NCBI GenBank assembly: GCA_943842625.1
Contig: CALTCK010000001.1
Coordinates: forward strand, 1-64,000
Length of the DNA stretch: 64,000 nt
Direction: 5' to 3'
Source: an uncultured Flavobacteriaceae bacterium
GTDB taxonomy: Bacteria > Bacteroidota > Bacteroidia > Flavobacteriales > Flavobacteriaceae
Shown: positions 487 to 58,652 of the stretch, in pieces
Position numbering within the stretch: position 1 is the first letter of the stretch
How the letters are laid out: each line of letters starts with the position of its first letter
Program-made: the position numbers and the translations under genes
The notes under the pieces: model-generated
Database searches by the model: none
What the model was told of the DNA's origin: nothing
Seen by the model: the letters and a program-made list of their open reading frames with translations, nothing else

Positions 487-522
487 AAAAAGCCTGAGAA
501 AAAATGATATCTCAGGCTTTTC
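487..522 (-). terminator. Rho-independent terminator after ftsZ
   Basis: A 12-bp inverted repeat (AAAAGCCTGAGA / TCTCAGGCTTTT) with a 10-nt loop is followed on the minus strand by a run of T. It sits 22 bp beyond the ftsZ stop and closes the division/cell-wall cluster. Confidence 0.85.
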
Positions 523-543
523 TGTTTAAAAATTAGATTGTTT

Positions 544-2568
544 TTAGTCTACATTATCATGTAAAAAAGAATTGTTAGTTCTTAAATCTATATCATTTTC
601 TTCATCCGTATTTAAGGAAGTCCTTGAAATATTTGCTTCTTGGTTTGACATTTCATCTAACTCTATGCCCATTCTTTTATAGGCAGGTTGTTTTTCAATC
701 TCGTCAATATGAGAAGGCTTTTTATTAAACTTATAATTAAACTCCTTCATTTGCCTTTTCCTAATTTCTGTACGCTCTGTTAATAGTTTAGAAATAGGCA
801 TGTTTATCGGATCTTCTGGTTCGTTTTTGGGATTTTCTACTGTTTTAGTAGACTCAACGATTCTGGTTTCAAAAGTTATTTCTTCGTCACTCAATTCATC
901 TTCAAATTCTTTTGGCTTTGCCTCGTTTAAATGATCTTCCATTTCTTGGTAGTTATCTAAACTATAGGTGATTGTTTTCTCTTTTGTTATTTCAGTAATT
1001 GGAGCAACTTCTAAATGTTCATTCACTTTAATTTCTTCAAGACGAGAAGTTGCTGTCTCTTGTTTATTTGAAGTTATTGAAGAAGTAGCATCTTTATTAA
1101 CAGCTATTTTATTTACATTATTTACCTCCAAATCAAACATTAAAATTTGATCCTCTGATGATTCGGATTCTAGCTTTACATCAGTCATATCCTTGTTGGT
1201 TTCTGAATTAGCTTTTGAATCTATTATAACGAAATCTTCAACATCGATCTCATTTATGTTTACCTCTTGAAAATCTGCTAAGGACTGAACATCAATCTCT
1301 TCATAATCGACATGAAGGTCTTTAATTAGATCTGAAGTTTCAACATAACCCTCGAACGGTACAGATTTAGTTGGTGAAATATGATCTTCTTCTACCGCAT
1401 CATCGAAGAGTGAATGTCTTACAATAGGAGATTCAGTTGTCGATTCAAGATTAGTTATCGGTTCGGTTTGGTTGAGATTGAAAGAAGAAATAGTATCGTT
1501 ATCGTCGGACATCAGTACTTGTTCGGCTTTTTGCTCATCTTCAAGAATATGAATTACTTTTTTTGATTCTGTATTTACAATATCGTTTTGTTGCTCAACA
1601 TTAAAGCCAGTAGCTATTACCGTAATTGATACTGCATCTTCTAATGATTCATCGTCTCCAACACCCATAATAATATTGGCACCATTACCTGCTTCATTTT
1701 GAATAAAGTCACTGATCTCACCAATCTCATCGATTGTAATTTCTTCAACTCCAGATACGATTAGTAACAACACATTGGTTGCACCTTTTATTTTATTATC
1801 ATTCAACAATGGAGAATCTAAGGCTTTAGCTATGGCTTCAGAGGCTCTATTTGTTCCACTTGCACTCGCAGATCCCATGATTGCAGTTCCACTGTTTGAC
1901 AATACTGTTTTAGCATCACGCAAATCAATATTTTGCGTATAATGGTGTGTTATAACTTCTGCAATACCCCTTGCTGCAGTTGCTAAAACCTCATCTGCTT
2001 TAGAAAAACCTGCTTTAAAACCAAGATTCCCATAAACATCTCTTAATTTATTGTTGTTGATCACAATAAGAGAATCGACATTTTCTCTTAATCTTTCAAC
2101 TCCAATATTAGCTTGTTGATTTCTCATTTTCCCTTCAAACTCAAAAGGTATGGTTACAATACCGACGGTAAGAATATTTAAATCTTTAGCCATTTTTGCT
2201 ATGATAGGGGCTGCACCAGTACCGGTACCACCTCCCATCCCAGCAGTGATAAATAACATTTTAGTATTCGTGGTTAGCATGGATTTTATATCTTCCATAC
2301 TTTCTACAGCAGATTGTTCCCCTATTTCAGGATTTGCCCCTGCTCCTAAACCCTCTGTTAGGGTAACTCCTAATTGGATTTTATTAGGTACAGGACTACT
2401 CTCTAAAGCTTGGGAGTCAGTATTGCAAATAACAAAGTCTACCCCATTTATTCCTTGGCTAAACATATGATTAATTGCATTGCTACCACCACCTCCAACT
2501 CCAATAACTTTTATAACATTGGATTGGTTTTTTGGCATGTCGAATTGAAAGTTTTCCATTTTACTCAT
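544..2568 (-). CDS. ftsZ: Cell division protein FtsZ with long acidic C-terminal tail
   Basis: Tubulin-like GTPase that polymerises into the Z ring at midcell. The 674-residue product shows the nucleotide-binding segment VIGVGGGGSNAIN (about 21-33) and the tubulin signature GGGTGTG (112-118). The globular domain ends near residue 325. The remaining roughly 350 residues are rich in Glu, Asp, Ser and Asn and look disordered, ending in a short conserved-looking peptide SFLHDNVD. E. coli FtsZ has 383 residues, so the extension is striking, but long tails are common in Flavobacteriia. It is the last gene of the cluster, 44 bp after ftsA, and is followed by a terminator. Identification is certain. 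Confidence 0.98.
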   Translation of the reverse strand: MSKMENFQFDMPKNQSNVIKVIGVGGGGSNAINHMFSQGINGVDFVICNTDSQALESSPVPNKIQLGVTLTEGLGAGANPEIGEQSAVESMEDIKSMLTTNTKMLFITAGMGGGTGTGAAPIIAKMAKDLNILTVGIVTIPFEFEGKMRNQQANIGVERLRENVDSLIVINNNKLRDVYGNLGFKAGFSKADEVLATAARGIAEVITHHYTQNIDLRDAKTVLSNSGTAIMGSASASGTNRASEAIAKALDSPLLNDNKIKGATNVLLLIVSGVEEITIDEIGEISDFIQNEAGNGANIIMGVGDDESLEDAVSITVIATGFNVEQQNDIVNTESKKVIHILEDEQKAEQVLMSDDNDTISSFNLNQTEPITNLESTTESPIVRHSLFDDAVEEDHISPTKSVPFEGYVETSDLIKDLHVDYEEIDVQSLADFQEVNINEIDVEDFVIIDSKANSETNKDMTDVKLESESSEDQILMFDLEVNNVNKIAVNKDATSSITSNKQETATSRLEEIKVNEHLEVAPITEITKEKTITYSLDNYQEMEDHLNEAKPKEFEDELSDEEITFETRIVESTKTVENPKNEPEDPINMPISKLLTERTEIRKRQMKEFNYKFNKKPSHIDEIEKQPAYKRMGIELDEMSNQEANISRTSLNTDEENDIDLRTNNSFLHDNVD

Positions 2569-2612
2569 TATTTAATTTTTGTGGGATTAATGGTTTCATT
2601 TATTGTAATGTT

Positions 2613-3923
2613 TTATTCTGCTTTGTCTAAAAAATCTTTTAAATTTTCTACCCATTTATCAAAAAAGCCCTTCTTTGGTTCTTTTGGGCCTTCTGGATCT
2701 TGTGGCTCTTCTGGATCTTGTGGTCCAGTTTCACCTGAAAGGTCTTTTGTTTCGTCTACTTTGGTGTTTTCCAATCCATTAAGCACTAAACCTACAGCAG
2801 TTGCATACATTGGGCTAGTAACTTCACTGTCACTATCGCCAGCCATATGTTCATTTGGATAACCTACTCTGGTATCCATTCCAGTAATATACTCAACCAA
2901 CTGTTTTAAATGCTTTAATTGAGACCCTCCTCCAGTTAAGACAATACCAGCGATAAGTTTGGTCTTTTGATCCTCGTGTCCATAATTTTTTATTTCCAAA
3001 TAAACTTGCTCTATAATCTCTATAACTCGAGCATGAATTATTTTTGAAAGGTTTTTTAATGTTATTTCTTTGGGTTCTCTTCCTCTTAAACCAGGAATAG
3101 ATACTATTTCGTTGTCTTTGTTTTCTCCTGGCCAAGCTGATCCAAATTTTATTTTTAATAATTCTGCTTGTTTTTCAATTATTGAACAACCTTCTTTTAT
3201 ATCCTCCGTAATGACATTTCCGCCAAATGGTATTACTGCTGTGTGTCGAATGATACCATCCTTAAATATTGCTAAATCTGTGGTACCGCCTCCAATATCA
3301 ATTAATGCAACACCTGCCTCTTTTTCTTCCATTCCCAATACCGCATTGGATGAGGCTAATGGCTCTAATGTAATTCCTGACAATGATAAGCCAGCACTTT
3401 TTATACATCTTCCAATATTACGAATGGATGATACCTGCCCAACTACCACATGAAAATTAGCTTCTAATCTTCCTCCATACATGCCGATAGGTTCCGTAAT
3501 TTCGCTTTGTCCATCTACCTTAAAATCTTGGGGAAGAACATGGATAATTTCTTCACCCGGAAGCATAACTAGTTTGTGAACTTGATTGCATAAGTCTTCA
3601 ATATCTTGATCATCAATTACGGTATCACTATCTTTTCTTGTGATATAATCACTATGTTTTAGACTTCGTATATGCTGGCCTGCAATACCTACTATAACAT
3701 CCGTAATTTTCATTTCTGAGGAAGTCTCAGCATCAAGAACTGCCTGTTGTATAGATTGTATCGTTTGTGTAATATTATTTACTACGCCCCTGTGCACCCC
3801 TAAACTTTTAGATTTTCCTAAACCTAAAATTTCAAGTTTTCCATATTCATTGTACCTCCCAATCATAGCAACAATCTTGGTAGTACCAATATCTAATCCA
3901 ACTGCTATTTTATTATGCTCCAT
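2613..3923 (-). CDS. ftsA: Cell division protein FtsA
   Basis: Actin-like ATPase that tethers FtsZ filaments to the membrane. I chose the ATG at 3923 (MEHNKIAVGLDIGTTK, 436 residues); an in-frame ATG at 3947 would add only MSPLKGKQ and overlap ftsQ further. With the chosen start the overlap with ftsQ is 11 bp. Phosphate-binding motifs DIGTTK (11-16) and DIGGGTTD (209-216) and a late LTGGGSQL are visible. The C-terminus has a Pro/Glu-rich linker followed by an amphipathic helix (GFFDKWVENLKDFLDKAE), the usual membrane-targeting element. The linker is encoded in part by an 18-bp tandem repeat (2691-2726). Confidence 0.97.
   Translation of the reverse strand: MEHNKIAVGLDIGTTKIVAMIGRYNEYGKLEILGLGKSKSLGVHRGVVNNITQTIQSIQQAVLDAETSSEMKITDVIVGIAGQHIRSLKHSDYITRKDSDTVIDDQDIEDLCNQVHKLVMLPGEEIIHVLPQDFKVDGQSEITEPIGMYGGRLEANFHVVVGQVSSIRNIGRCIKSAGLSLSGITLEPLASSNAVLGMEEKEAGVALIDIGGGTTDLAIFKDGIIRHTAVIPFGGNVITEDIKEGCSIIEKQAELLKIKFGSAWPGENKDNEIVSIPGLRGREPKEITLKNLSKIIHARVIEIIEQVYLEIKNYGHEDQKTKLIAGIVLTGGGSQLKHLKQLVEYITGMDTRVGYPNEHMAGDSDSEVTSPMYATAVGLVLNGLENTKVDETKDLSGETGPQDPEEPQDPEGPKEPKKGFFDKWVENLKDFLDKAE
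2691..2726 (-). repeat. 18-bp tandem duplication inside ftsA
   Basis: Two adjacent 18-bp units differing at two positions (2691-2708 and 2709-2726) encode the repeated Pro-Glu/Gln-Asp stretch in the linker before the FtsA membrane-targeting helix. It is in frame and probably tolerated because the linker is unstructured. Confidence 0.8.
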
Positions 3924-4644
3924 TTGTTTCCCTTTTAGTGGCGACAACTTGATTGTTATATTTTAAATTAATCAAACTGTAATTCTCAAGTAAACTATCT
4001 CTTTTTATTATTTTATAAAATGCTTTGAACTTTTGAAATTTATGATCTATTTCAACTGGTGGTCCAATTAGCACTTTAAACTGGTTTTTTCGAACTGTAA
4101 AAACTACTTCATCCTCGTTAACGATATCCAAACCAATAACTAATTCTTTCAAAAAATCATCCTTTGTGATTTTTTTAATCAATTCTGATATTTCAGTATA
4201 TTGATTTTTTAAAATACCGGATACGATAGGCACTCTTGCTGAATACTCTGTCGACAAAGGCATCGTTTTTCCATCTTCGTCTAAATAAAAATCAGGTTCA
4301 TTTTTAACCCTAGCAACTGGTTTTCTTTGAGTTATATTTACACTCAAAATTCCATCAATTGTTATATAGACCTCAGCATTTTTTATCATTGGATTTTCCA
4401 ACAATATACTTTCCATCTTATTCAAAACTAAAGTATCTTTATCTATACTCGTAACACTATCTATATTTTGTATTAACAATTTATTAACTGTTTTTTTTGT
4501 AATAAATAATCGGGTTTCATCCTCAAATTCTATAGCTATTCCTGAAATATCTCTAGCTATATTTCTTTGTTGGCTGAAGTTAAAAACAAATACGACTAAA
4601 CTCGTAATCAATATAAATTTTATAAGTCCCCAGTTAATTTTCAT
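3913..4644 (-). CDS. ftsQ: Cell division protein FtsQ
   Basis: Single-pass inner-membrane divisome protein. The 243-residue product has a short cytoplasmic N-terminus and one membrane helix (about residues 8-25, FILITSLVVFVFNF), then a periplasmic part with POTRA-like and beta features (LLENPMIKNAEVYITIDGIL). Its place between murC and ftsA is the standard position. It overlaps murC by 11 bp and ftsA by 11 bp, suggesting translational coupling. Sequence conservation in FtsQ is low, so the call rests on topology, size and synteny together. Confidence 0.9.
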   Translation of the reverse strand: MKINWGLIKFILITSLVVFVFNFSQQRNIARDISGIAIEFEDETRLFITKKTVNKLLIQNIDSVTSIDKDTLVLNKMESILLENPMIKNAEVYITIDGILSVNITQRKPVARVKNEPDFYLDEDGKTMPLSTEYSARVPIVSGILKNQYTEISELIKKITKDDFLKELVIGLDIVNEDEVVFTVRKNQFKVLIGPPVEIDHKFQKFKAFYKIIKRDSLLENYSLINLKYNNQVVATKRETNGA

Positions 4645-5990
4645 AATTCAAATTTTTAGTTACAACATCAACCTCTGCTCCAATATCTCCAGCACCTACC
4701 ATTAATTTCACCATACAATCTGAATCTTTCATCAATGTTGAAAGTTGTTTTTTTTGTGCTATCACTTTACTATCATTACGAATCATTTTCAATAACCAAT
4801 TTGAAGTAATTCCTTCGATAGGTTTTTCTCTTGCTGGATAAATATCTAATAATATTATTTCGTCAAAAGCCGACAAACTTTCTGCAAACTCAGTTCCAAA
4901 ATCTTTTGTTCTTGAAAATAAATGAGGCTGAAAAACAATCTGTTTTTTGTCATTTGGATACATTTCTGTTACGGCTTGATGTAGGGCTTTAATCTCTGTT
5001 GGGTGATGAGCATAATCATCAATTAAAATCAAATTATTTTTCTTAATTTTATATGAAAATCTTCTTTTAACTCCCCTAAAAGATTTTAAAGCTTTGGGAA
5101 GGCAATTAATTGGTGCGCCAACTAAAATTGCCATACCCAAAGCGGTAACAGCATTAAACATATTATGTCTTCCTGGCAAATTAAATTGTAGGTCTTTAAT
5201 TTCTTCAGATGGTGTTTTTAAGTCAAATACATAACACCCATCCTCAACCCTTATATTTTTAGCTTGATAATCTGCAGCTTCTTCAGTAGATATGGTATTA
5301 CCCACTAAAGGCAATCCTTTTTTGAATAATAAGTTATTTGTATTTGAAACTAATTTTGAAAATTCTACAAAGGTTTTTTCTAATGCATTTTCAGACTTAT
5401 AAATATCTAAATGATCAGCATCCATAGAGGTAATACAAGCAATTTTTGGACTTAGGTGTAAAAAAGATCGATCAAATTCATCAGCCTCTATCACCATTAT
5501 TTTATCTCCTTTATATATTAAGTTTGAATTATAATTTTCTGTAACACCTCCTAAAAAAGCAGTAATTGGCATATTACAGTACGCTCAGCAAATGACTTAG
5601 TATAGACGAAGTTGTTGTTTTTCCGTGGGTTCCGGCAACCGCTAAGCAAATACTATTTTTAGAAAGCTCCCCAAGTAATTCAGCTCTCTTACAGATTAAA
5701 TAATTTTTAGATTTGAACCAAGAAAGGATTAGATTACTGTAAGGAACTGCAGGAGTTCGGATTATCAATGATTTATCATTACATTTTATTTCTTCTGGAA
5801 TTTCATTAATTTCATCATCAAATTGAATAGAAATACCCTCACTAATTAAAGTATTTGTCAAGTTAGTAGGAGTTTTATCATAACCAAAAACTTGTTTCCC
5901 TCTTAAATGGAAATATCTCGCAAGAGCACTCATACCAATACCTCCTATACCGATAAAATAAAAAATCTCTATGTTTTCAATATTTCTCAT
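4634..5990 (-). CDS. murC: UDP-N-acetylmuramate--L-alanine ligase MurC, frameshifted
   Basis: Adds L-alanine to UDP-MurNAc in the cytoplasm. The gene starts at ATG 5990 (MRNIENIEIFYFIGIGGIGM, dinucleotide-fold motif) and carries the ATP loop GTHGKTTT (120-127). The frame then breaks at about 5574-5588: frame 1 stops after residue 138 (HLLSVL), while the continuation (CNMPITAFLGGVTENYN) is in the +1 frame and runs to 4634, including the DDYAHHPTEI motif. Removing one base restores 451 residues, the normal family length. The gene starts 1 bp after the murG stop. MurC is essential, so a sequence error is more likely than a true null. Confidence 0.93.
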
Positions 5991-5991
5991 T

Positions 5992-7092
5992 CTAAGAAAC
6001 TGTCTCTTTTAATAATTTTTTAATTTCGTCTACAATATCTTTTGTAGCGTTTGGCTTCGCTAATGATTTAATATTTTTTGATAATTTTGATTGTAAATTT
6101 TTAGAATTAATTAATTGATTAAATTCATTTTTAAATTGCTCATCTAAATCTTCCTCCTTAATTAAAATTGCAGCATTTTTAGTACTAATAGATTTTGCAT
6201 TTTTAGTTTGATGATCTTCAGAAACATTAGGAGAAGGAATAAATATTACTGGTTTACCAACTAAACATAATTCAGATACCGACAATGCACCTGCCCTGGA
6301 AATAATAAAGTCTGAAGCAGCGTATGCTAAATCCATTCTATTTAAAAAAGAATGAACCTGAATACCATCGCCCTCATTTTTTCTATAAGTTTCATAATAA
6401 TAACTACCACATTGCCACAAAATCTGAATATTTAATTTTAAAAAAAAACTTAAGTGACTATTTATCAGCTGATTAATTCTTTTAGCACCCAGACTACCTC
6501 CTAAAATTAATAACGTCTTTTTTGTGGAGTTTAAATTAAAATATGAAATTGCTTGATCTCTTTTATTACTTATATCTATTAAATCTTGACGCACTGGATT
6601 GCCCGTATAACATATTTTTTCGGAAGGGAAGTAACGTTCCATTTTTTCGTACGCAACACAAATCTTATTTACTTTTTTGCTCAACCATTTATTGGTAATT
6701 CCCGCATACGAATTTTGTTCTTGAATAATACAAGGTATTCCCTTAATTGATGCCATTTTTAAAAGCGGAGCACTAGCATAACCGCCTGTCCCAACTACTA
6801 AATCAGGTTTAAACGATTTTAATATTTTTTTAGAATCCAAAAAACTAGAAATCAACTTAAAAGGGAATAAAAGGTTGTTTAAAGAAAAACTTCTTTGCAA
6901 ACCAGAAATCCAAAGACCTTTTATATTGTAACCTGATTGAGGAACCTTTTCCATTTCCATTCGATCTTTAGCGCCAACAAACAAAAATTTTGCTTCAGGA
7001 TAGCGTAACTTCAACTCGTTAGCAATAGCAACAGCTGGATAGATATGTCCTCCAGTTCCTCCTCCTGATATGATGAAATTATAGGGTCTCAC
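5992..7092 (-). CDS. murG: UDP-GlcNAc:lipid I GlcNAc transferase MurG
   Basis: Peripheral inner-membrane glycosyltransferase (GT28 type) that converts lipid I to lipid II. The 366-residue product has the Gly-rich N-terminal motif [11 protein letters not shown] (about 10-20) and the C-terminal domain segment [22 protein letters not shown] that binds UDP-GlcNAc. Length matches the family. It overlaps ftsW by 14 bp and is followed 1 bp later by murC, so the three are likely translated as a coupled set. Confidence 0.97.
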
Positions 7093-8269
7093 TTAAAATA
7101 TCTAATGGGTTTTCTTCATATGTTTCATTTTTTATAACCTCTCTTTTTGCACTTATACTCAAAATCATACCAATTGCTAAACAGGTCATCCAAATAGATG
7201 AACCTCCACTACTTATCAAAGGAAGTGTTTGACCTGTAACTGGAAATATTTCTACCGCTACAGCCATATTAATTAATGCTACAAATACAATAGGAAGTCC
7301 AACTCCTATAACTAATAATTTACCAAAAACGGTTTCGGCTTTATGTGCTACAATGACGAATCGAAACAGCAATAACATGTAAAGAAACATCAAAGTAAAA
7401 GAACCAACTAAACCAAATTCCTCAACGATTATAGCGTAAATAAAATCTGAAGATGATTGTGGTAAAAAGTTCTTTTGAATACTTTTTCCTGGACCCAATC
7501 CTGTAATACCTCCAGATGCAATTGCTATTTTTGCTTTTTCTATTTGATAATCAGCTTCTGTTTTTTCTCCATCAAAAAAATTATCTATCCTACTAATCCA
7601 AGTATCAACTCTATTTGGAAATACATTTGGAAATGCTTTTGCTGAAACAATAAAAAATGATAAAAACATTAAACTTGTAAAAAGGATTATTAGTAAATAT
7701 TTGACTGGATAGCCACCAATAAAAATCAATACAATCACCATGGAAAATATAATTGCAGCAGTCGATAAATTTGCTGGAAGTATTAAAGTTAATACCAGAA
7801 AAACAGGAACCCAAAGAGGCAGCACTGACTCTTTGAACGTTATTGTATTGTCTTTAATTTTTGATAAATATCTAGCTATATAAGTTAATAAAACGACTGA
7901 TGCTAAAGTTGAACTTTGAAATGTCACTCCAACTATAGGAATACGAATCCACCTACTTGCGTTAGCACCATCTATAGTAACTCCTTGCGTTATGGTAATT
8001 ATTAATAAAATAATTACGATAGGTAGTGCAATAACAGACAAGCCTTTAAAATAATTATACGGAACTTTATGAACGCCATATAAAATCACAAATCCTAGAA
8101 TTAAATGTGTAAGATGCTTTAATAAAAATTTAAATGTATTTCCATCTCCATATAAGTAAGCTAAATTACTGCTAGAGCTGTAAACAGGTAAAAAAGAAAA
8201 TAATGCTAATAAAGAAACTACAGCCCAAATAGTCTTATCACCTTTTATATGTCGAAAAACATTCTTCAT
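7079..8269 (-). CDS. ftsW: Lipid II polymerase FtsW (SEDS family)
   Basis: Polytopic SEDS glycosyltransferase that polymerises lipid II at the septum together with FtsI. The 396-residue protein is mostly hydrophobic, with about ten membrane segments. The SEDS hallmarks are near the C-terminus: [17 protein letters not shown]. Its position between murD and murG identifies it as FtsW rather than the elongation paralogue RodA. The N-terminal region is shorter than in E. coli FtsW. It overlaps murG. Confidence 0.95.
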
Positions 8270-8292
8270 TAGTTAACCAATCTTATTATAAA

Positions 8293-9633
8293 TTATAAAT
8301 TCCTAACAGCATTTTTAAATTGTCTTCCTCTGTCTTCATAATTTTCGAATAAGTCAAAACTAGCACAAGCTGGAGACAGTAAAACAATATCGCCTTTCTT
8401 TGAAAGACGGTACGCAACTTTTACAGCATCTTCCATAGAATGAGTTTCTACCATAATATCTACTACATTACCAAATGCTTTAATTATTTTGTCATTATCA
8501 ACACCTAAACAAATAATCGCTTTAACTTTTTCATTCACTAATGCAAATAGCTCGCTGTAATCGTTTCCTTTGTCAACGCCACCAACAATCCAAACTGTAG
8601 AAGCCTCCATGCTATCCAAAGCATAAAACGTTGCATTAACATTTGTACCCTTAGAATCATTGATGTATCGAACATTATTAATTTTTAATACATTTTCTAA
8701 TCGATGTTCAACACCTTGAAAATTCTCTAAACTTCTTCTAATAGTAGCTTTTCTAATATTGAGTAAAGTTGAGGCGGTTGATGCTGCCATAGCATTTTTA
8801 ATATTATGCTGACCTTGTTGTCCTAGTTTTGTAATTGACATAGTAAATGTGTTGTTATTTGTTATTATTATTAATTCGTTATTTTTTATGTAAGCCCCTT
8901 TTTTCAATTCTTTCTGTAATGAAAAAGGAATTAATTGAGATTTGATTGTTGTACTAGAAATCCACTTATTTATCATTAAATCATCTGCATCATAGATAAA
9001 ATAGTCGTCACTTGTCTGATTCATCACTATTTTAAATTTTGAAGCTATATACTTTTCATAATCATTGCCGTATCTATCTAAATGATCGGGTGATAAATTG
9101 GTTAAAATTGCTATGTGAGGTGCAAAATTATAAGTGCCATCTAACTGAAAACTGCTTAGTTCTAATACAAATTGATTTATATCCTTTGTAGCAACCAGTT
9201 CCGCAAAACTTTTTCCTATATTTCCGGCTAGTGCAACGTTATTACCAGCATCTTTTAAGATTTTATGGATCATCGTTGCTACAGTCGTTTTTCCGTTACT
9301 ACCTGTAATTCCAATTAAAGTAGCTGTTGTATAAGTGGCGGCAAACTCAATTTCTGAAACAATCCTAATTCCTTTTTTCTTTAATTTCAATACCAAAGGA
9401 GTATTTTCTGGAATACCAGGGCTTTTCATTACGATATCTGCACCTAGAATTTCAGTCTCTGAGTGAACTCCTTCTTCCCAATTAATTTCATGATGTAAAA
9501 GAACTTGTTTGTATTTTTTTTTTATTTTTCCATAGTCCGAAACAAAAACTTCAAACCCTTCTTTCTTTCCTAAAATAGATGTACCTATACCACTTTCTCC
9601 TGCACCAAGTATTACTATTTTGTTTTTTTTCAC
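8293..9633 (-). CDS. murD: UDP-MurNAc-L-Ala--D-glutamate ligase MurD
   Basis: Cytoplasmic Mur ligase adding D-glutamate. The 446-residue product has an N-terminal nucleotide-type fold (ILGAGESGIG), the ATP loop GSNGKTT (111-117), the central NLSPDHLDRYG motif and the C-terminal NDSKGTN/VGGVDKGNDY region. Length and order are standard. It lies 23 bp upstream of ftsW and 19 bp downstream of mraY within the cluster. Confidence 0.97.
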   Translation of the reverse strand: MKKNKIVILGAGESGIGTSILGKKEGFEVFVSDYGKIKKKYKQVLLHHEINWEEGVHSETEILGADIVMKSPGIPENTPLVLKLKKKGIRIVSEIEFAATYTTATLIGITGSNGKTTVATMIHKILKDAGNNVALAGNIGKSFAELVATKDINQFVLELSSFQLDGTYNFAPHIAILTNLSPDHLDRYGNDYEKYIASKFKIVMNQTSDDYFIYDADDLMINKWISSTTIKSQLIPFSLQKELKKGAYIKNNELIIITNNNTFTMSITKLGQQGQHNIKNAMAASTASTLLNIRKATIRRSLENFQGVEHRLENVLKINNVRYINDSKGTNVNATFYALDSMEASTVWIVGGVDKGNDYSELFALVNEKVKAIICLGVDNDKIIKAFGNVVDIMVETHSMEDAVKVAYRLSKKGDIVLLSPACASFDLFENYEDRGRQFKNAVRNL

Positions 9634-51740: not shown

Positions 51741-53585
51741 TTATTCAAAATTTCTAAAACCACAGTCAAAACAATAAACAACCACATACCTGTCTTTTTC
51801 AGCCAGGAACATCCTGTTCAAGCCACTAATTTTACTCAATAAATCTTGGATTTGGACTGGAAGTATGTCCTGTGCCATTAAATTTAAGTAATCCTCAAAT
51901 TCAACCTCGTTATTATAGGAAAAAACTTTATAATCTTCTAACTTAAGTTTTGTTGCCATGGAATCAATTGCGTCGTCTAAGGTGCCTAATTTATCAACTA
52001 AACCTAATTCCAGCGCGGTATCACCTCTCCATATTCTTCCACCAGCAAATTTAAGGACTTTAGCGAAGTCCATCTCTCTATTATTGGCAACCTTAGTAAC
52101 AAAATCCTTATAAATTTTTTCTGTATTTTCTCTAAATTGCTTATCGAGTTCTTCATTCATTCCTTTTCTCAAATCGTAAACATCTCCAGCTTTTGTCATA
52201 CTTACACCGTCATAATTCATCCCCACCCACTTTTCTAGTGGAGAAAAATCTGGAATAATACTGTAGACCCCAATTGATCCTGTCAGCGTAGTTTCTTCAG
52301 CCCAAATTTCTTCAGAGGTAGTAGTTACCCAGACCCCTCCAGATGCAGCTATATCTCCCATGGATGTTATTACAGGTCTTCCTGTAGCTTGAAATTCCTC
52401 CAAAGCATTTGTAATCATTGAAGAAGCATATACATCGCCTCCAGGGCTATTAACCCTTAGAACAATCCCCTTAACATTTTCATCGTCTCTAGCTTTATTA
52501 ATATTTTTTACAATATCTCCTGACCCTGCAGTATCGAACCCTATATTACCGGTTACAATTGCTCCTTCAACATGAATAATAGCAATTTTATTTTTTTCTT
52601 GAACCTTTTTTTGCTTATTACTTATATCCTCATCTTTTAGAGTGGTCAGGTATTCTATTCCTGAAATTCCTTCAGGACGTTCATATTCCTCTTCACTACC
52701 ATATTTTTCAATCATATAGTTCCTTAATTCTTGCTTAGACATTAGCTTATCCACAAGACCAATTTCAAGAGCTGTTTCATTGTTATCTCCACCATTACCA
52801 TCGGTAAGTAAATGGTAATGGTCTCCGATATACTGAATTTTACCTGAATCGAAACCTCTACCCGTCTCCATTTTACTTTTATATTTTTCCCAAACTGGGG
52901 TTACAAACTCTAGCCAAGCCAGCTTGTCTGTTTCAGACATATCATTTCTTGTATAACCTTCAGGACCTGATTTAAAATCACCAGCAGCATAAACATTCAT
53001 GTCAACTTTAATATTTTCAAAGAAATCTTTCTGATATTGCCTTACTCTACTAAATCCAAAAGGAAGCACTGATTCATAAGAGTCTTTTTCTAAAATAATC
53101 TCAGTTGCTTGAGAAACCATGAGATATCCAGTAGTTCCGAGTCCGCTTGTAAAAGCAATAATCTCTTTACCATTTTCTCTTGCCTCGAATAGAGCATCTG
53201 CTATTTTTAACGCAGAAGTGTAATAAGCACTTAAGCCGTCAACATTAAGATAAATAGCTTTAAGATTATCATCTGTACCAGCGTTTTTGATAACTTTTAA
53301 AAAATTTTCTAATTCAATCTGATTGGAGGAGTTTCCAAAAACCTCAAATTCTTCAAAAGGTCCATTTATTGTAATTGCCTTGTCCACAATCATTCCATTT
53401 GGTTCCAAGTATAAAATTTGATCTGCAGTCTCAACTTTATCAGATTCAAACAAAGAACTCAGGCTATACATAAAACCAAATGATAATAGCATTAAAAAAA
53501 GAACGGTAAGGATATTTAAAAAGACTCTTCTAAATTTTCCGAGAAGATTGTCTATAAACGAAATAACACTTTTAATTTTTTCCAT
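51741..53585 (-). CDS. sppA: Signal peptide peptidase SppA (67-kDa type)
   Basis: Membrane-bound serine protease degrading cleaved signal peptides. The 614-residue product has one N-terminal helix (about 18-44) and two tandem ClpP-like domains. The catalytic Lys is in AGDFKSGPEGY (first domain) and the Ser in GDIAASGGVWV (second domain), as in E. coli SppA. A TAATTTTG -7-like box (53610-53617) precedes it. The C-terminus carries an unusual Cys-containing stretch (VVVYCFDCGFRNFE). Confidence 0.92.
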   Translation of the reverse strand: MEKIKSVISFIDNLLGKFRRVFLNILTVLFLMLLSFGFMYSLSSLFESDKVETADQILYLEPNGMIVDKAITINGPFEEFEVFGNSSNQIELENFLKVIKNAGTDDNLKAIYLNVDGLSAYYTSALKIADALFEARENGKEIIAFTSGLGTTGYLMVSQATEIILEKDSYESVLPFGFSRVRQYQKDFFENIKVDMNVYAAGDFKSGPEGYTRNDMSETDKLAWLEFVTPVWEKYKSKMETGRGFDSGKIQYIGDHYHLLTDGNGGDNNETALEIGLVDKLMSKQELRNYMIEKYGSEEEYERPEGISGIEYLTTLKDEDISNKQKKVQEKNKIAIIHVEGAIVTGNIGFDTAGSGDIVKNINKARDDENVKGIVLRVNSPGGDVYASSMITNALEEFQATGRPVITSMGDIAASGGVWVTTTSEEIWAEETTLTGSIGVYSIIPDFSPLEKWVGMNYDGVSMTKAGDVYDLRKGMNEELDKQFRENTEKIYKDFVTKVANNREMDFAKVLKFAGGRIWRGDTALELGLVDKLGTLDDAIDSMATKLKLEDYKVFSYNNEVEFEDYLNLMAQDILPVQIQDLLSKISGLNRMFLAEKDRYVVVYCFDCGFRNFE

Positions 53586-53694
53586 AATGTTTCCTAGTTA
53601 TCTATTTATCAAAATTACAGTTTAAATTCTAATTTATTGAAATAAGTCCTTGTATTCTTGAATACACCGCAGAACAAATAGAGCGATTGTTTAG

Positions 53695-53964
53695 TTAATT
53701 ACCTGCAAAAGGAGTTCCAAAAACACCTACTGCCAACTCTGCCCATATTAACATAAATATTAAAACTAATATTCCAATGTATAGGACTCGATTTTTTAAA
53801 TTCTTTACACGAGTACTCACAAAATTAATTCCAATACTAAGGGAAATTAGTAGAGAACCCATGATAATGAAATCAAATGGACTCCAGTTAATTTCGTCAG
53901 TGATACCCATCCCAATTAAAGGAATTAATAACAAAAAAAGAGGATAAAAAATTCTTTTTGACAT
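53695..53964 (-). CDS. Small membrane protein with three helices
   Basis: An 89-residue hydrophobic protein (MSKRIFYPLFLLLIPLIGMG) with three membrane segments (about 5-22, 30-47 and 61-83). I take the ATG at 53964; an upstream TTG at 53970 would add only two residues. No function can be assigned. The tRNA-terminator repeat copy 1 ends 12 bp upstream, so its present promoter region may be partly supplied by the repeat. Confidence 0.7.
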   Translation of the reverse strand: MSKRIFYPLFLLLIPLIGMGITDEINWSPFDFIIMGSLLISLSIGINFVSTRVKNLKNRVLYIGILVLIFMLIWAELAVGVFGTPFAGN

Positions 53965-53976
53965 ACTCAAATATAA

Positions 53977-54057
53977 AAAAACGGCTACACTATAATAGTA
54001 TCACCGTTTTATTGTTTTAGTAGATAACTCTATTGAAATATCGAACATTAATTTTAC
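53977..54057 (-). repeat. tRNA-terminator repeat, copy 1 (arm + core)
   Basis: An 81-bp sequence matching copy 2 at 77 of 81 positions by my alignment. The left 47 bp correspond to the sequence right after initiator tRNA-fMet (the core with the 16-bp hairpin, partly decayed here). The right 34 bp form an arm shared only with copy 2. Confidence 0.85.
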
Positions 54058-54142
54058 TTCAAGAGATCTATTAAATACAATTAAATCAATCAATTATATA
54101 TTGGAAAGTGATCTTGAGTAATGATTTAAAGCCGTTCAATAA

Positions 54143-55159
54143 TTAATGAGAAGTAATCTTTGTAACTGCTACTGCTGTTTCTAAAAGTGTTTTTTCAAAA
54201 GGAATAGGTTTCCAATTGAAAACTTCCATTGTTTTAGAATTATCAGCACTTAGATTCATATCAAGCATAGCCAACATACCTTTGGCCTCTCTGTCAAAGA
54301 TGGACAAAAGTTTTAACATGAAATTTGGCGCTAATTTGGTGCTCGGACCTTTATAGCCATTGTCAATAAGCAATTGGCATATCGATTGAAAACTTCTCCC
54401 TATTTTTTCTGTTGCAATAAAACGTTGGTTGGCTGCTTTTGGCTCTGTTAGGGCGGCTACATGTAAATAGGCAACATCACGTACATCGACCATTGGAAAG
54501 GATGTGTTTGGTACCATTGGAGTTTTTCCACCTAAAATTTTTACAATCATGGACATTGAAGCTCCCGTAAGATTTTTACCAAGCGGAGGTCCAAAAACTC
54601 CTCCTGGGTTAATACTGACTAATTCTAATGAGTTATCACCTGATTGATTATTAATAAAATCCCATGCAGATTTCTCTGCCAATGTTTTACTTTTGAAATA
54701 AGTACTTATGTTTTTTGAATTTAAGTCAGTCCAGTCATCTGGTGTAATTGTGCCTGTTTTTTTACCCCCCATTATAGCGACTGTTGAGCTGGTTAAAACA
54801 ACTCGTTTCACCCCATTTTTTTTAGCAGCTTTGAGTACTCTAAGGGTTCCATCTACAGCAGGACCAAGCATATCTGACTCATTTTTAGGGTTTTCAACAG
54901 TAAAAGGAGAAGCGACGTGCATAACATAATTACAATTAGATAGTGCAGAATCCCATCCTTTATCAGAACTAAGATCTAAATGGGTAAAAGAAAGGTTCTC
55001 AATAGAAACAGAATTTGAATTAAGTGTCTTTATAACCTCTTCTTCCTTTTTTGTGCTTCTTACTGTACCGACTACGGTATATCCTTTTTCTAAAAGAATT
55101 TTGGCGCAATGCAAACCAATATAACCAGATATTCCTGTTAACAATACTTTTTTATTCAT
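54143..55159 (-). CDS. SDR-family NAD(P)-dependent epimerase/reductase
   Basis: The 338-residue extended SDR begins with the Rossmann motif VLLTGISGYIGLH (TGxxGYIG) and has YFKSKTLAEKSAWDF in place of the usual YxxxK, with the Tyr and Lys conserved. It resembles dihydroflavonol reductase or cinnamoyl-CoA-reductase-like enzymes, so a ketone or aldehyde substrate is likely. It is divergent from an HxlR regulator, which probably controls it, and both sit in cassette B between repeat copies 1 and 2. Confidence 0.88.
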   Translation of the reverse strand: MNKKVLLTGISGYIGLHCAKILLEKGYTVVGTVRSTKKEEEVIKTLNSNSVSIENLSFTHLDLSSDKGWDSALSNCNYVMHVASPFTVENPKNESDMLGPAVDGTLRVLKAAKKNGVKRVVLTSSTVAIMGGKKTGTITPDDWTDLNSKNISTYFKSKTLAEKSAWDFINNQSGDNSLELVSINPGGVFGPPLGKNLTGASMSMIVKILGGKTPMVPNTSFPMVDVRDVAYLHVAALTEPKAANQRFIATEKIGRSFQSICQLLIDNGYKGPSTKLAPNFMLKLLSIFDREAKGMLAMLDMNLSADNSKTMEVFNWKPIPFEKTLLETAVAVTKITSH

Positions 55160-55190
55160 ATGATTGATTATTTATTATTACTTTTGATTC

Positions 55191-55230
55191 GATAGCAAAA
55201 ATAGTAAAATTACTATTGTTTTGATAGTAA
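55191..55230. promoter_or_regulatory. Putative HxlR operator between SDR and HxlR genes
   Basis: ATAGTAA-AA-TTACTAT (55201-55216) is a perfect 7-bp inverted repeat with 2-bp spacer. Further half-sites GATAGCAAAAA (55191-55201) and GATAGTAA (55223-55230) flank it. A TATTTTTG -7 box for the SDR gene (55196-55203, minus strand) overlaps the array, so binding would block transcription. The regulator assignment is by adjacency. Confidence 0.55.
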
Positions 55231-55249
55231 AAATTATATTTTTATAATT

Positions 55250-55669
55250 ATGTCAATTTTAGATACGTTTTTTAGGTGTAATTGTCCTGTAACTTCAGCA
55301 TTAGATATTGTTGGAGACAAATGGACGCTTGTTGTTATAAAGTTGATGCTATTAGAACAAAAAAAAACATTTAAAGAGTTCTCCGAAAGTGATGAATCAA
55401 TTGCACCAAGTATTTTATCTAATAGGTTAAAAACACTTGAAAAAATAGGATTTATAGTCAAACAAAAATTACCTGACAACCAAAAAACTAATCACTATTT
55501 TCTAACTGAAAAAGGACTTTCGTTAACTCCGGTTATAATAGAGTTGGCCTTGTGGAGCCATCACAATATTAAACCTGTCGATAATCAAGACATAGCAAAT
55601 GTTAAAGATAAAAATGAATTACACCTGGCAATCATTGAAAGATATAAATCAAAAACGGTTACACTATAA
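55250..55669 (+). CDS. HxlR family transcriptional regulator with repeat-encoded C-terminus
   Basis: A 139-residue winged-helix regulator of the HxlR/MarR-like type: CNCPVTSALDIVGDKWTLVV (N-terminal Cys and the DKWT motif) and SILSNRLKTLEKIGFI (recognition region). It often senses electrophiles or quinones through the conserved Cys. The last five codons (KTVTL) and the TAA stop fall inside repeat copy 2, which begins at 55651, so the gene's natural 3' end was probably cut or replaced. It is divergent from the SDR gene. Confidence 0.88.
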   Translation: MSILDTFFRCNCPVTSALDIVGDKWTLVVIKLMLLEQKKTFKEFSESDESIAPSILSNRLKTLEKIGFIVKQKLPDNQKTNHYFLTEKGLSLTPVIIELALWSHHNIKPVDNQDIANVKDKNELHLAIIERYKSKTVTL

Positions 55670-55731
55670 TAGTATAACCGTTTTATTGTTTTAGTAGACA
55701 ACTCTATTGAAATATCGAACATTAGTTTTAC
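55651..55731 (-). repeat. tRNA-terminator repeat, copy 2 (arm + core)
   Basis: An 81-bp repeat. The first 47 bp (55651-55697) are identical to the sequence directly downstream of tRNA-fMet (56441-56487), including a 33-bp hairpin; the last 34 bp match copy 1. It overlaps the end of the HxlR gene. Confidence 0.9.
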
Positions 55732-55772
55732 ACCAGTAGAATTCTTGGAAGTTAATAAATCAATTCTATTAA

Positions 55773-55973
55773 TTATTTAGATCCCTCATAAAAGAAGAGT
55801 TCCTCAATAGCTATCTCAAATAACTTTGACATCTTAAATGCTGTGGGTAAACTTGGATCAAATTTTTCTTTTTCAATCGCATTTATCGCTTGACGTGAAA
55901 TACCAATTAAGTTGGCTAATTCTTCTTGTGTCAATTTTTGATTTTTCCTTAACTCTCTTAATCTATTTTTCAT
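55773..55973 (-). CDS. XRE (Cro/CI) family DNA-binding protein
   Basis: A 66-residue one-domain helix-turn-helix protein (LTQEELANLIGISRQAINAI, recognition helix). It overlaps the upstream membrane protein by 4 bp (ATGA), a coupled regulator and membrane-protein pair seen in many Bacteroidota and Firmicutes. It probably regulates its own two-gene operon. It is in cassette A between repeat copies 2 and 3. Confidence 0.88.
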   Translation of the reverse strand: MKNRLRELRKNQKLTQEELANLIGISRQAINAIEKEKFDPSLPTAFKMSKLFEIAIEELFFYEGSK

Positions 55974-56356
55974 TTAAATCTTAATGAATTAACGATAATA
56001 GAAGTCATGTATGAAAAGCAAATGAAAAACACTAAATATTCAAACTCAGGTTCCGAATTAATAACTCCAAAATCAAACGAAATCTCATACACAAGACCAA
56101 CAACTACCGTTAACCCTAATGTAAGGGCCATTGATTCAAAGTGAATTTTCTTTTGTAATTCATCATAATGCTTAAATAAATTTTTATTTGCGATAATCAT
56201 ACCAACCCCAATAGCAAGATTTATAAATAATCCTATTTTGGTAATTAATACGTTATCCCATAAATTGTTTACTCCCGCTGATAAAATTGCAGTACTTACT
56301 ACCCAAGCAAATACCCATCCAAGTAAAATTTTTGTTTGTTTTTTTTGTTCTTTCAT
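55970..56356 (-). CDS. Four-helix membrane protein coupled to XRE regulator
   Basis: A 128-residue polytopic protein with about four membrane helices (about 11-29, 37-56, 75-93 and 105-123) and a charged loop (NKNLFKHYDELQKKIHFESM). No named family can be given with confidence. It is followed by the XRE gene with a 4-bp overlap. A TACTTTTG -7 box (56380-56387 on the minus strand) sits inside a pair of inverted ACTTTAC sites (56374-56380 and 56406-56412), a possible operator for the XRE protein. Confidence 0.75.
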   Translation of the reverse strand: MKEQKKQTKILLGWVFAWVVSTAILSAGVNNLWDNVLITKIGLFINLAIGVGMIIANKNLFKHYDELQKKIHFESMALTLGLTVVVGLVYEISFDFGVINSEPEFEYLVFFICFSYMTSIIVNSLRFK

Positions 56357-56440
56357 CTTTTTATGTAATGTTTACTTTACAAAAGTAGTCAAAATAAATT
56401 AAAATGTAAAGTTTTATTTACAAAAAATATGTTTTGATAA

Positions 56441-56484
56441 AAAAACGGTTACACTATAATAGTATAACCGTTTTATTGTTTTAG

Positions 56485-56487
<3 letters not shown>
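56441..56487 (-). repeat. tRNA-terminator repeat, copy 3 (core), tRNA-fMet terminator
   Basis: The 47-bp core beginning at nucleotides 71-73 of tRNA-fMet and running through a 33-bp hairpin (56442-56474) followed by T residues on the minus strand. As well as ending the tRNA transcript, it is repeated identically in copy 2 and with two changes in copy 1. Confidence 0.88.
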
Positions 56488-56557
<70 letters not shown>

Positions 56558-56735: not shown

Positions 56736-58652
56736 TTAGTGGATAGCATCTATTTGTTCCGTGATAACTTCCCAATTTTCCATTAACTTTTCCAGTTCTT
56801 TTTTCTTTGAATGGTATTGGTCAAAAAAGTTAGGCTTGCTAATGGTTTCGTCGTAATTAATAGACAATTCAAAATCGATCTCTTTAATAACTTTCTCTAA
56901 TTTAGTGATAGAAGCCTCTGTTTTGCTTAATTTATTATGAAGAGACTTTAATTTCTTTTGATTTTCATAGCTTTCTTTACTGGAAGATTTATGTTCTTTA
57001 CTTTTTGCATTGGTTTTGGTTCTCATTTCCGCCTCTCTTAGATTTTGAATATTTCTCTGTTCTAGAAAATAATCAATATCGCCCAAATATTCTTTGATAT
57101 CTTGATCTTTGAATTCATAAATTTTAGTGGTTAACCCTTGAAGAAAGTCTCGATCATGAGAAACTACCAGCAAGGTTCCTTCAAATTTAATCAGCGCATC
57201 TTTCAAGACATTTTTTGATTTGATATCTAAATGGTTGGTAGGTTCGTCCATTACCAAAACATTAAATGGCTGTAACAATAATTTTGCTAATGCGAGTCGG
57301 TTTCGCTCTCCACCGGATAAAACACGTACATATTTATCGACCTCGTCTCCTCTAAATAAAAACGCTCCTAAAATATCTCTAACTTTAGCTCTATTTTTTT
57401 CATTTGCAGCGTCAATCATAGTATCTAGGACGGTTTTAGATCCGTCTAGATAATCGGCTTGATTTTGAGCAAAATAGCCGATTTCTACATTGTGCCCCAA
57501 CTTTAAAGCTCCAGAAAAAGGAATCTCACCAACAATACACTTAGCCAAGGTTGATTTTCCCTGTCCATTTTGACCTACAAATGCAATTTTGCTGTTTCTT
57601 TCAAGCAATAAGCTTATCTTATCAAGTACTTGTTTATCATCGTAATTTTTAGAAACATCTTCCGCCTCTATAACTACTTTACCCGGGTTTACAGAAATTG
57701 GAAAATTTAAAGTCATGACACTATGGTCATCTTCATCTACTTCGATTCGGTCAATTTTATCTAGCTTCTTTATTAAAGATTGCGCCATCGTAGCTTTTGA
57801 AGCCTTGGCTCTAAATTTTTCTATTAATTTTTCGGTTTGCTCTATCTGTTTTTGCTGATTTTTTTGAGTCGCTAATTGCTGTTCTCTCAGTTCTTTACGC
57901 AAAACTAGGTATTGAGAATAGGGCTTATTGAAATCGTAAATTCTGCCCAATGATATTTCGATGGTTCGGTTGGTTATGGTATCCAAAAACATTTTATCGT
58001 GAGAAACAATAACGATGGCACCCGTATAGTTTTTCAGGAACTCTTCTAGCCATAAAATAGATTCTATATCCAGATGGTTGGTAGGCTCATCTAACAAAAG
58101 GATATCATTATTTTGCAATAATAATTTTGCCAACTCAATTCGCATTCTCCAACCTCCTGAAAAGGTATCGGTAGGCATATCAAAATCAGCTCTCTGAAAA
58201 CCTAATCCCTGTAAGACTCTTTCTGTTTCTCCCTGATAACTATAACCCCCATGTATTTCATACTGGTGCTGTACTTCGTTTAAATCGACCATTAACTGAT
58301 GATAGCCCTCACTTTCGTAGTCGGTCCGTTCAATTAACTTTTGGTTGATCGTCTCTAACTGATTTTCTAACTTTTTAATTTCTTTAAAAGCCTCGTAGGA
58401 TTCTTCTAGAACCGTTCTCCCTTTAACAAAATCAATATCTTGTTTTAAAAAGCCTATCGAAACTTTTTTATCGGAAGCAATTTGCCCACCATCATACTCT
58501 TGTTCTCCTGATAATATTTTTAATAAAGTAGATTTTCCTGCTCCATTTTTTCCCACCAATCCTACTCGATCACCAGCTCTTAGTTGAAACGTAATCCCAG
58601 AAAATAAATCATCGCCTTGAAACGAAACAGTCAGATTGTGAATATTGAGCAT
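56736..58652 (-). CDS. ABC-F family ATPase (Uup/YdiF-like)
   Basis: A 638-residue soluble protein with two ABC domains joined by a long linker: Walker A GLVGKNGAGKSTL and GQNGQGKSTL, signature FSGGWRMRIELA and LSGGERNRLALA, Walker B LLLDEPTNHLD twice. A C-terminal coiled coil (about 540-638) resembles Uup and related proteins that bind ribosomes or DNA. It has no membrane part, so it is a translation-related or repair factor rather than a transporter. Antibiotic-resistance function is not supported. Confidence 0.9.
   Translation of the reverse strand: MLNIHNLTVSFQGDDLFSGITFQLRAGDRVGLVGKNGAGKSTLLKILSGEQEYDGGQIASDKKVSIGFLKQDIDFVKGRTVLEESYEAFKEIKKLENQLETINQKLIERTDYESEGYHQLMVDLNEVQHQYEIHGGYSYQGETERVLQGLGFQRADFDMPTDTFSGGWRMRIELAKLLLQNNDILLLDEPTNHLDIESILWLEEFLKNYTGAIVIVSHDKMFLDTITNRTIEISLGRIYDFNKPYSQYLVLRKELREQQLATQKNQQKQIEQTEKLIEKFRAKASKATMAQSLIKKLDKIDRIEVDEDDHSVMTLNFPISVNPGKVVIEAEDVSKNYDDKQVLDKISLLLERNSKIAFVGQNGQGKSTLAKCIVGEIPFSGALKLGHNVEIGYFAQNQADYLDGSKTVLDTMIDAANEKNRAKVRDILGAFLFRGDEVDKYVRVLSGGERNRLALAKLLLQPFNVLVMDEPTNHLDIKSKNVLKDALIKFEGTLLVVSHDRDFLQGLTTKIYEFKDQDIKEYLGDIDYFLEQRNIQNLREAEMRTKTNAKSKEHKSSSKESYENQKKLKSLHNKLSKTEASITKLEKVIKEIDFELSINYDETISKPNFFDQYHSKKKELEKLMENWEVITEQIDAIH

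Follow-up and report, generated by a model that had tools for sequence, protein, structure and literature searches.

Organization of the locus

The array described here lies in 64,000 nucleotides of DNA (positions 1 to 64,000 of contig CALTCK010000001.1, assembly GCA_943842625.1; hereafter, the window) from an uncultured Flavobacteriaceae bacterium, and it consists of small groups of genes aligned behind the gene for tRNA-fMet and separated by copies of one repeat. Starting from tRNA-fMet, the order is: terminator, membrane-like protein and XRE regulator, arm, terminator, HxlR regulator and SDR, arm, terminator, an 89-amino-acid protein and, finally, sppA; "arm" is used here for the part of the repeat that precedes the terminator, and the coordinates of all the features are collected in Table 1.

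Table 1. Features of the array and of its two flanks, with positions counted from the first letter of the window
Feature	Position	Strand	Remarks
ABC-F-type ATPase	56736..58652	-	left flank, upstream of tRNA-fMet
tRNA-fMet (CAU), initiator-like	56484..56557	-	3' end ...CTCCCGCTA, up to the junction: presumed attachment site; junction placed by inference from other loci
Cassette A	55695..56484	-	790 bp: own terminator, 128-aa membrane-like protein, XRE regulator, arm
Cassette A left end	56441..56484	-	terminator-like hairpin (inverted repeat), now serves the tRNA
Membrane-like protein, 128 aa	55970..56356	-	without Pfam family
XRE/HTH_3 regulator, 66 aa	55773..55973	-	
Cassette A arm	55695..55764	-	motif TTCGATATTTCAATAGAGTTGTCTA at 55695-55719
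Arm A coding-like tail	55697..55777	+	DNSIEISNISFTPVEFLEVNKSILLII, then stop; no ATG seen
Cassette B	54021..55694	-	1674 bp: terminator, HxlR, SDR, arm
Cassette B left-end terminator	55651..55694	-	
HxlR-type regulator	55250..55669	+	
SDR/epimerase-like oxidoreductase	54143..55159	-	
Cassette B arm	54021..54090	-	motif at 54021-54045
Arm B coding-like tail	54023..54112	+	
Cassette C, truncated	53683..54020	-	terminator (53977-54020) and 89-aa gene (53695-53964), without arm
sppA-like S49 peptidase	51741..53585	-	right flank of the array

The initial annotation of this DNA had reported three copies of a 47-bp core, two of them identical, and they are found where it placed them: the copies at 55651-55697 and 56441-56487 are identical over 47 bases, and that at 53977-54023 has two changes. 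A 42-base piece of the core has 3 matches in the window with up to 3 mismatches, against 0.00 expected in shuffled sequence. The annotation had also extended two of the copies by 34 bp; the sharing is confirmed, and its real extent is a little longer, since an alignment of the copies at 53977 and 55651 gives 95% identity over 81 bp and 84% over 114 bp. Another core-like copy in the same genome is the terminator of tRNA-Asn (C5:4719-4763, 87%).

As for the cargo, the two gene pairs, XRE with a membrane protein and HxlR with an SDR, are as they had been described, the membrane-like protein having 128 amino acids. The HxlR gene runs into the terminator repeat, which supplies its stop codon. On the whole, the window is best read as two complete cassettes, A and B, followed by a truncated third, C; the 89-amino-acid gene beside sppA is counted as a cassette because it is bounded by arms elsewhere, in locus L071 and in the one-contig genome G885, so that the copy in the window, cassette C, is missing its arm.

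Boundaries of the cassettes

The typical arm ends with ...GTTCGATATTTCAATAGAGTTATCTA and gives way to the core, a terminator-like hairpin; most are of the common CTAAAACAATAAAACGG... type, and several unrelated hairpins also occur. Because arms also precede these unrelated terminators, the terminator core is the left end of the next cassette and does not belong to the arm. The same terminator, with the cassette start behind it, was found both behind a tRNA and behind an arm, and, in its variable part, the arm has a higher identity within cassette clusters (0.853) than between them (0.714; 65 cassettes, 100 and 1980 pairs). Since arm identity follows the cassette, while terminator and cassette start recur behind both tRNA and arm, the repeat is, by these comparisons, a composite of the arm that closes one cassette and the terminator that opens the next. 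The tRNA ends in ...CCCGCTA and the arms in ...TCTA, and the switch to terminator sequence occurs at that point; the bases common to tRNA and arm at the junction are only a few (CTAC).

These few bases bear on one alternative, in which the genes are shuffled by homologous recombination between arm and terminator repeats, with no site-specific recombinase. Internal junctions share up to ~80-115 bp of arm and terminator, perhaps enough for gain, loss or exchange by RecA once an array exists; the first insertion is instead hard to explain by homology, because tRNA and arm share so little and the right ends run into unrelated terminators, and as an account of the whole array this alternative is improbable.

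Distribution and association with tRNA genes

Matches to the arm pattern come from 53 stretches of the genome_contigs collection (43 assemblies by accession prefix); 52 of these stretches are titled as Bacteroidota lineages and one as Rhodothermaeota MED-G19, and the exact pattern has no match in IMG/VR. These 53 stretches were unselected and of at most 8 kb each, and they hold 81 arms: 31, spread over 19 stretches, are preceded by a tRNA-Met(CAU) on their own strand, which in one case (L086) is not initiator-like, and for 34 of the remaining 50 the sequence upstream is shorter than 3 kb. No arm among the 81 has a tRNA-Met beside it on the opposite strand. In 21 larger loci, chosen from the 53 stretches and from the first searches, a tRNA-Met(CAU) lies within 15 kb on the same strand for 37 of 50 arms, counting pseudo-tRNAs still called by ARAGORN; the remaining 13 are near contig starts (G443, G055 and contig 4 of G442), just past the limit (one, in G001) or in stretches with no tRNA-Met. 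The opposite case, a common family of 81-bp terminators scattered away from tRNAs, which the initial annotation had itself raised, was not encountered for the arm in these stretches and loci; the bare terminator is present at other places, for example at tRNA-Asn.

Within the family of the window, a 90-bp unit matched 36 of 397 genomes, its own included (E ≤ 1e-8); by count from the listing, 20 of these matches reach query position 70 or beyond, the rest covering mainly the terminator, and 35 of the 36 genomes are of 2.7 Mb or less. As for the 361 non-matching genomes, 16 of the 20 listed are of at least 3 Mb.

Cassette catalogue and apparent movement between genomes

Between successive sites, 65 cassettes were delimited, and single linkage placed them in 29 clusters, 11 of which have more than one member; one of the latter (L165 and L071) rests solely on a common right end of 291 bp. 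Their median length is 1008 bp (range, 489 to 8575), and some of the long ones probably contain a missed site. Twenty-two cassettes start at the end of a tRNA or pseudo-tRNA. The same cassettes recur across genomes in changing orders, and the succession tRNA-core-A-arm+core-B-arm+core, proposed from the window alone, is found in other genomes with the same or other cargo, next to other orders. The cluster of cassette A has eight members; five follow a tRNA or pseudo-tRNA directly, and a sixth (L171) is separated from its own by other sequence.

Regarding the cargo, a scan of ten cassette proteins gave HTH_3 (two proteins), HxlR, bPH_4, SnoaL, YceI, DUF2306 and PHB esterase, with one CMD match below the cut-off and one protein without any match; sigma-factor-like and lipoprotein-like proteins also appear to be present. 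The inventory has regulators, small enzymes and proteins of the membrane or lipoprotein-like kind in place of phage genes, which suggests a role in everyday adaptation.

Near-identity between orders is seen in one case, that of cassette A: along 792 bp, counted from the end of the tRNA to that of the arm, it is 99.75% identical to its counterpart in a Cytophagales metagenome-assembled genome (MAG; titled Flammeovirgaceae UBA4465); the adjoining tRNA is 91.7% identical, the upstream sequence has no match and, downstream, only 44 bp of terminator match. In strain G001, the right flank (the sppA region) is 98.6% identical to that of the window over 2350 bp and the array is a different one, with a cassette A only 84% identical, so that cassette A was probably gained separately. 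The tRNA-fMet of G001 (L044:18246-18319) differs from that of the window strain in the T-arm and in the 3' strand of the acceptor, as if the integrated island had replaced the 3' part of the tRNA. Lastly, the first 134 bp of cassette B are 99.3% identical to sequence directly behind tRNA-fMet in G055, which belongs to another family and whose contig ends there. Small cassettes with no integrase of their own, arranged head to tail behind the initiator tRNA of some Bacteroidota, appear to move between distant species in the fashion of integron cassettes, with other recombination sites.

The initial annotation had also proposed comparing the interval from tRNA-fMet to sppA among relatives: other cargo with the same arm was found, a clean empty site was not (see below). 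In 16 of 19 genomes of the genus, ABC-F loci were located, seven of them with a tRNA-Met; in five of these seven (L198, L199, L202, L203 and L204), the tRNA is followed by other terminators, with no common core directly behind it, and these loci count as unproven empty sites, their downstream genes being unmatched to the window.

The recombinase at the cassette junction

No integrase gene lies between the repeats, as had been noted from the start. Two tyrosine recombinases, with open frames of 304 and 329 amino acids, are encoded in the genome of the window (84% complete), both away from the array and XerC/XerD-like as judged by length only; neither a dedicated integrase nor IntI was detected in it beyond these two. 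In relatives, the search that had been recommended for an integrase adjoining the arrays led to an integrase-bearing element at the same tRNA: in G001, G428 and G442, a tyrosine recombinase (347 amino acids from the first ATG) adjoins, and diverges from, a pseudo-tRNA-fMet that ends at the cassette junction, and cassettes follow directly behind; in G431, it stands beside an end that resembles tRNA-fMet, and the first arm comes 8.6 kb later. The element extends from the real tRNA to the pseudo-tRNA, which are ~6.7 kb apart in G428 and ~6.4 kb apart in G001.

This recombinase family matched 18 of 395 genomes of the order (E ≤ 1e-40). A pattern tuned on already seen cases places a divergent, tRNA-like T-loop no more than 260 bp from 13 of 24 recombinase frames; five are at contig edges and six have none by this pattern, although one of these six (L128) has there a 105-bp repeat of a tRNA-Met region; the tRNAs or pseudo-tRNAs beside the recombinase are of the Met, Asn, Arg and Leu types. 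In two recombinases from relatives, only PF00589 reached the Pfam cut-off, and the sole PDB match at E ≤ 0.001 is a XerC-like recombinase (4a8e, 2.8e-13). Pieces of the recombinase 3' end are repeated in the tRNA-borne islands L126, L129, L135 and L142, perhaps as remnants of earlier insertions, and the Polaribacter-type genome G428 has C-terminal fragments at C1:903186, 914078, 1496561 and 114834, which are possible marks of further array sites elsewhere in it. Recombinase relatives in IMG/VR amount to six pattern matches, none of them confirmed, and in phage and plasmid records only partial matches, 23-28% identical, were obtained (16 phage and two plasmid records). A phage or plasmid origin was rejected, IMG/VR having yielded neither the arm, by its exact pattern, nor a confirmed relative of its peptide or of the recombinase.

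On account of the shared junction and neighbourhood, the 6.4-6.7 kb element is the likely, but unproven, helper that serves the cassettes in trans. The acting enzyme could otherwise be housekeeping XerC/XerD: the genome of the window has only its two recombinases of XerC/XerD-like length, and the island family goes unmatched in 13 of the 21 genomes with arms (E ≤ 1e-20). The junction that the cassettes have in common with the integrase islands argues for an island enzyme instead, and a housekeeping one is improbable.

The small cassettes of one or two genes, the fixed insertion end and, in some genomes, a recombinase divergent from that end might also be taken for a true integron with attC sites and IntI. 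This assignment is extremely improbable: the two recombinases from relatives score 19.7 and 23.4 bits on TIGR02249, far below the cut-off of 265, and IntI was rejected on this basis; the arms fold no better than their shuffles (mean z-score -0.40 on the plus and -0.59 on the minus strand; 18 of 80 arms, RNA energies).

A coding-like tail in the arm

On the strand opposite to the tRNA, the reading of the arms is DNSIEISNISFTPRDF..., or variants of it, and they stay open for at least 20 codons before a stop in 78 of 80 cases; this tail corresponds to a conserved, C-terminal-like peptide of about 30 amino acids. In 35 non-redundant arms, it has 7 in-frame stops against 20.1 ± 3.3 after column shuffling, and its amino-acid similarity is 11.4 standard deviations above the shuffles, which ignore kinship. 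The five other frames give z-scores of 1.8 to 5.5, without a comparable shortage of stops; one of them, on the opposite strand, has a larger synonymous share of single differences (6836/12123 vs 5656/12053) and yet 38 stops. No ATG was present in the stretches inspected, and in-frame stops occur upstream, in the common terminator.

A search for a full-length parent gene found none. Of 296 genomes of the order, five have the tail as a short open frame (33-60 codons); weak partial matches in frames of 672 and 816 codons, in two more genomes, were judged unrelated. Among 395 genomes of the phylum, the only matches were the two tails of the window and one weak partial match, in a 498-codon frame. 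Pfam gave only PF08178 (E = 0.1, 2 of 21 members), PDB a single match (0.27), and IMG/VR 31 pattern matches, none confirmed. Profile comparison ruled out that the tail is the N-terminus of the integrase; we take it as a possible relic, or borrowed end, of some gene.

A parallel array at tRNA-Asn

In G001, a second array is located at tRNA-Asn (L039, G001:C4:60000-75000), with four copies of another arm, ending, for example, with ...GTGCTGCAACTTTGAATAATAGGGGGAGC at the junction; locus L078 was also noted for this array. The same type of arm (ending AATAGGGGGAGC at the junction) is present in G049, of another family (L036, G049:C4), and one pair of arms from the two genomes is identical over the ~100 bases shown. 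A sigma-factor-like gene pair from the tRNA-Asn region in G001 recurs in G430, within the array at tRNA-fMet. The tRNA-Asn array is analogous to the one at tRNA-fMet and is shared between families.

Proposed mechanism

Taken together, the array is most probably anchored at the tRNA and made of non-autonomous gene cassettes that integrate site-specifically. Each cassette would have the form terminator, one to few genes, and arm ending in ...TCTA; in its circular form, the arm would meet the terminator and create the attachment site of the element. Recombination with the 3' end of tRNA-fMet (...CGCTA), presumably at CTA, would leave the tRNA whole and provide it with the terminator of the cassette, pushing the earlier terminator or cassette downstream, and repeated insertion would yield a tandem array; the recombinase would be supplied in trans by the 6.4-6.7 kb element that uses the same junction, which was not found in the genome of the window. 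What carries this reading is visible in the alignments: where the units begin and end, the arm that they share, the switch of terminator after the tRNA, cassettes that recur in different orders and genomes, and one near-identity between orders. The comparison of arrays across genomes likewise supports the repeated integration of non-autonomous elements at one tRNA that had been suggested from the window.

Several points weigh against it. Excision and the circular form are deduced from sequence comparison. No clean empty site was found for the interval from tRNA-fMet to sppA, a close sppA type being present only in G000 and G001 (39 genomes), and the arms of G435, G438 and G431, and one each of G432 and G436, have no tRNA-Met in their stretch. 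Left-terminator identity is only slightly higher within cassette clusters (0.818) than between them (0.790), a small contrast due to the dominance of one terminator type. As for the recombinase, it was found, at E ≤ 1e-20, in only eight of the 21 arm-bearing genomes (in a 22nd genome searched, G007, only a terminator-like match was obtained); it is reduced to fragments or broken in G002 and G436, at the array in the latter, contains a stop in G438, lies away from the array in G438, G439 and G885, and also occurs in G045 and G411, where no arm was found. In addition, the integrase element ends with a pseudo-tRNA and not with a cassette arm. The contrast behind the transfer between orders is modest, with Era and Der 52-63% identical between the Cytophagales contig and the flavobacterial loci, against 63-77% among the latter. 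Finally, there is a small chance of assembly error, since the Cytophagales match and G001 both derive from MAGs with FRAM18 names; the array of the one-contig genome G885 and assemblies whose names (SCGC, MS024-3C) are of the single-cell type speak against a general artefact.

The most serious rival is that the cassettes are worn-down genomic islands, or cis-mobilizable elements (CIMEs), which lost the genes for integrase and transfer and kept their attachment (att) sites, in which case the array would be a fossil record and not a working system. In its favour, the islands with an integrase share the tRNA and the junction, pieces of the integrase 3' end occur in related loci, and tandem CIMEs are on record in two reports (PMC5704250, PMC3146451). 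The small form itself seems mobile, however: several genomes have one- or two-gene cassettes with unchanged boundaries, and cassette A, which carries no integrase, is 99.75% identical in two orders; moreover, the cassette arm differs from the pseudo-tRNA end of the integrase element. Decay of this kind is an unlikely, if respectable, explanation.

A broader and tentative proposal, which we hold to be somewhat short of an even chance, is that small-genome Bacteroidota possess a second integron-like way of capturing genes, with tRNA-fMet as the fixed site, a dedicated tyrosine recombinase acting in trans, and a pool of one- and two-gene cassettes shared across orders, each of them bringing a new terminator for the tRNA; the array at tRNA-Asn, which has an arm of its own, would point to a family of these systems, one per tRNA, and the parent gene of the tail may belong to a missing autonomous partner.

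Comparison with known systems

Integron arrays are made of small cassettes, each ending in a recombination site, with a fixed insertion end, and distant hosts share them. Small cassettes set in an array with a fixed point of insertion are found here as well; the differences are that the recombinase is not IntI, the sites tested do not fold, the insertion point is a tRNA gene and the genome often has no matching recombinase.

Tycheposons have a tyrosine recombinase and cargo genes. They measure 4-200 kb and make use of tRNAs, according to PMC10872708. Integration at a tRNA gene is common to the cassettes; a recombinase of their own and a length of at least 4 kb are not, for cassettes A (790 bp) and B (1674 bp) carry none.

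Among the sources consulted, three offer the nearest printed precedents. In Dehalococcoides, islands stand in tandem downstream of ssrA, and a repeat of the 3' end of this RNA gene delimits each of them; 15 lack an integration module, and a short conserved motif lies just upstream of the repeat (PMC3146451). They differ in having a serine recombinase and a 20-bp repeat of the RNA gene, whereas here the cassettes are mostly of ~1 kb, the arm is unlike the tRNA and the terminator is replaced. In Methylophilaceae, the additive flexible genomic island fGI-2 at tRNA-Lys repeats the last 20 nt of the tRNA in varying number, and the variable islands there range from 330 bp to 42 kb; its repeat is the tRNA end itself, and the sections seen describe no shared arm, helper or transfer across orders (PMC10872708). 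The accretion of CIMEs and integrative mobilizable elements (IMEs) resembles the array in that integrase-less, att-bearing elements are stacked with an integrase-bearing relative, and cassettes A and B indeed lack integration and transfer genes and are flanked by repeats; CIMEs are described as decayed integrative conjugative elements (ICEs) or IMEs, whereas here one- to few-gene cassettes recur (PMC5704250). An ancestral ICE or IME carrying the cassette arm was not found in the genome and IMG/VR searches made with the arm tail.

Among the literature matches listed, titles and abstract beginnings contain no description of such arrays. Small-genome Bacteroidota are abundant in the sea, a habitat judged here from record names, and the way in which they acquire genes is poorly known; cassettes of ~1 kb that can turn up in a different taxonomic order, at a single predictable site, offer a concrete and testable route for their flexible genome, and reading the sequence behind tRNA-fMet becomes a simple finder of mobile genes. 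In conclusion, we class the cassettes as a kind of tRNA-borne integrative element, with a fair chance of deserving a class of their own, and the natural comparison is with integrons: the layout is the same, the sites and the enzyme are other.

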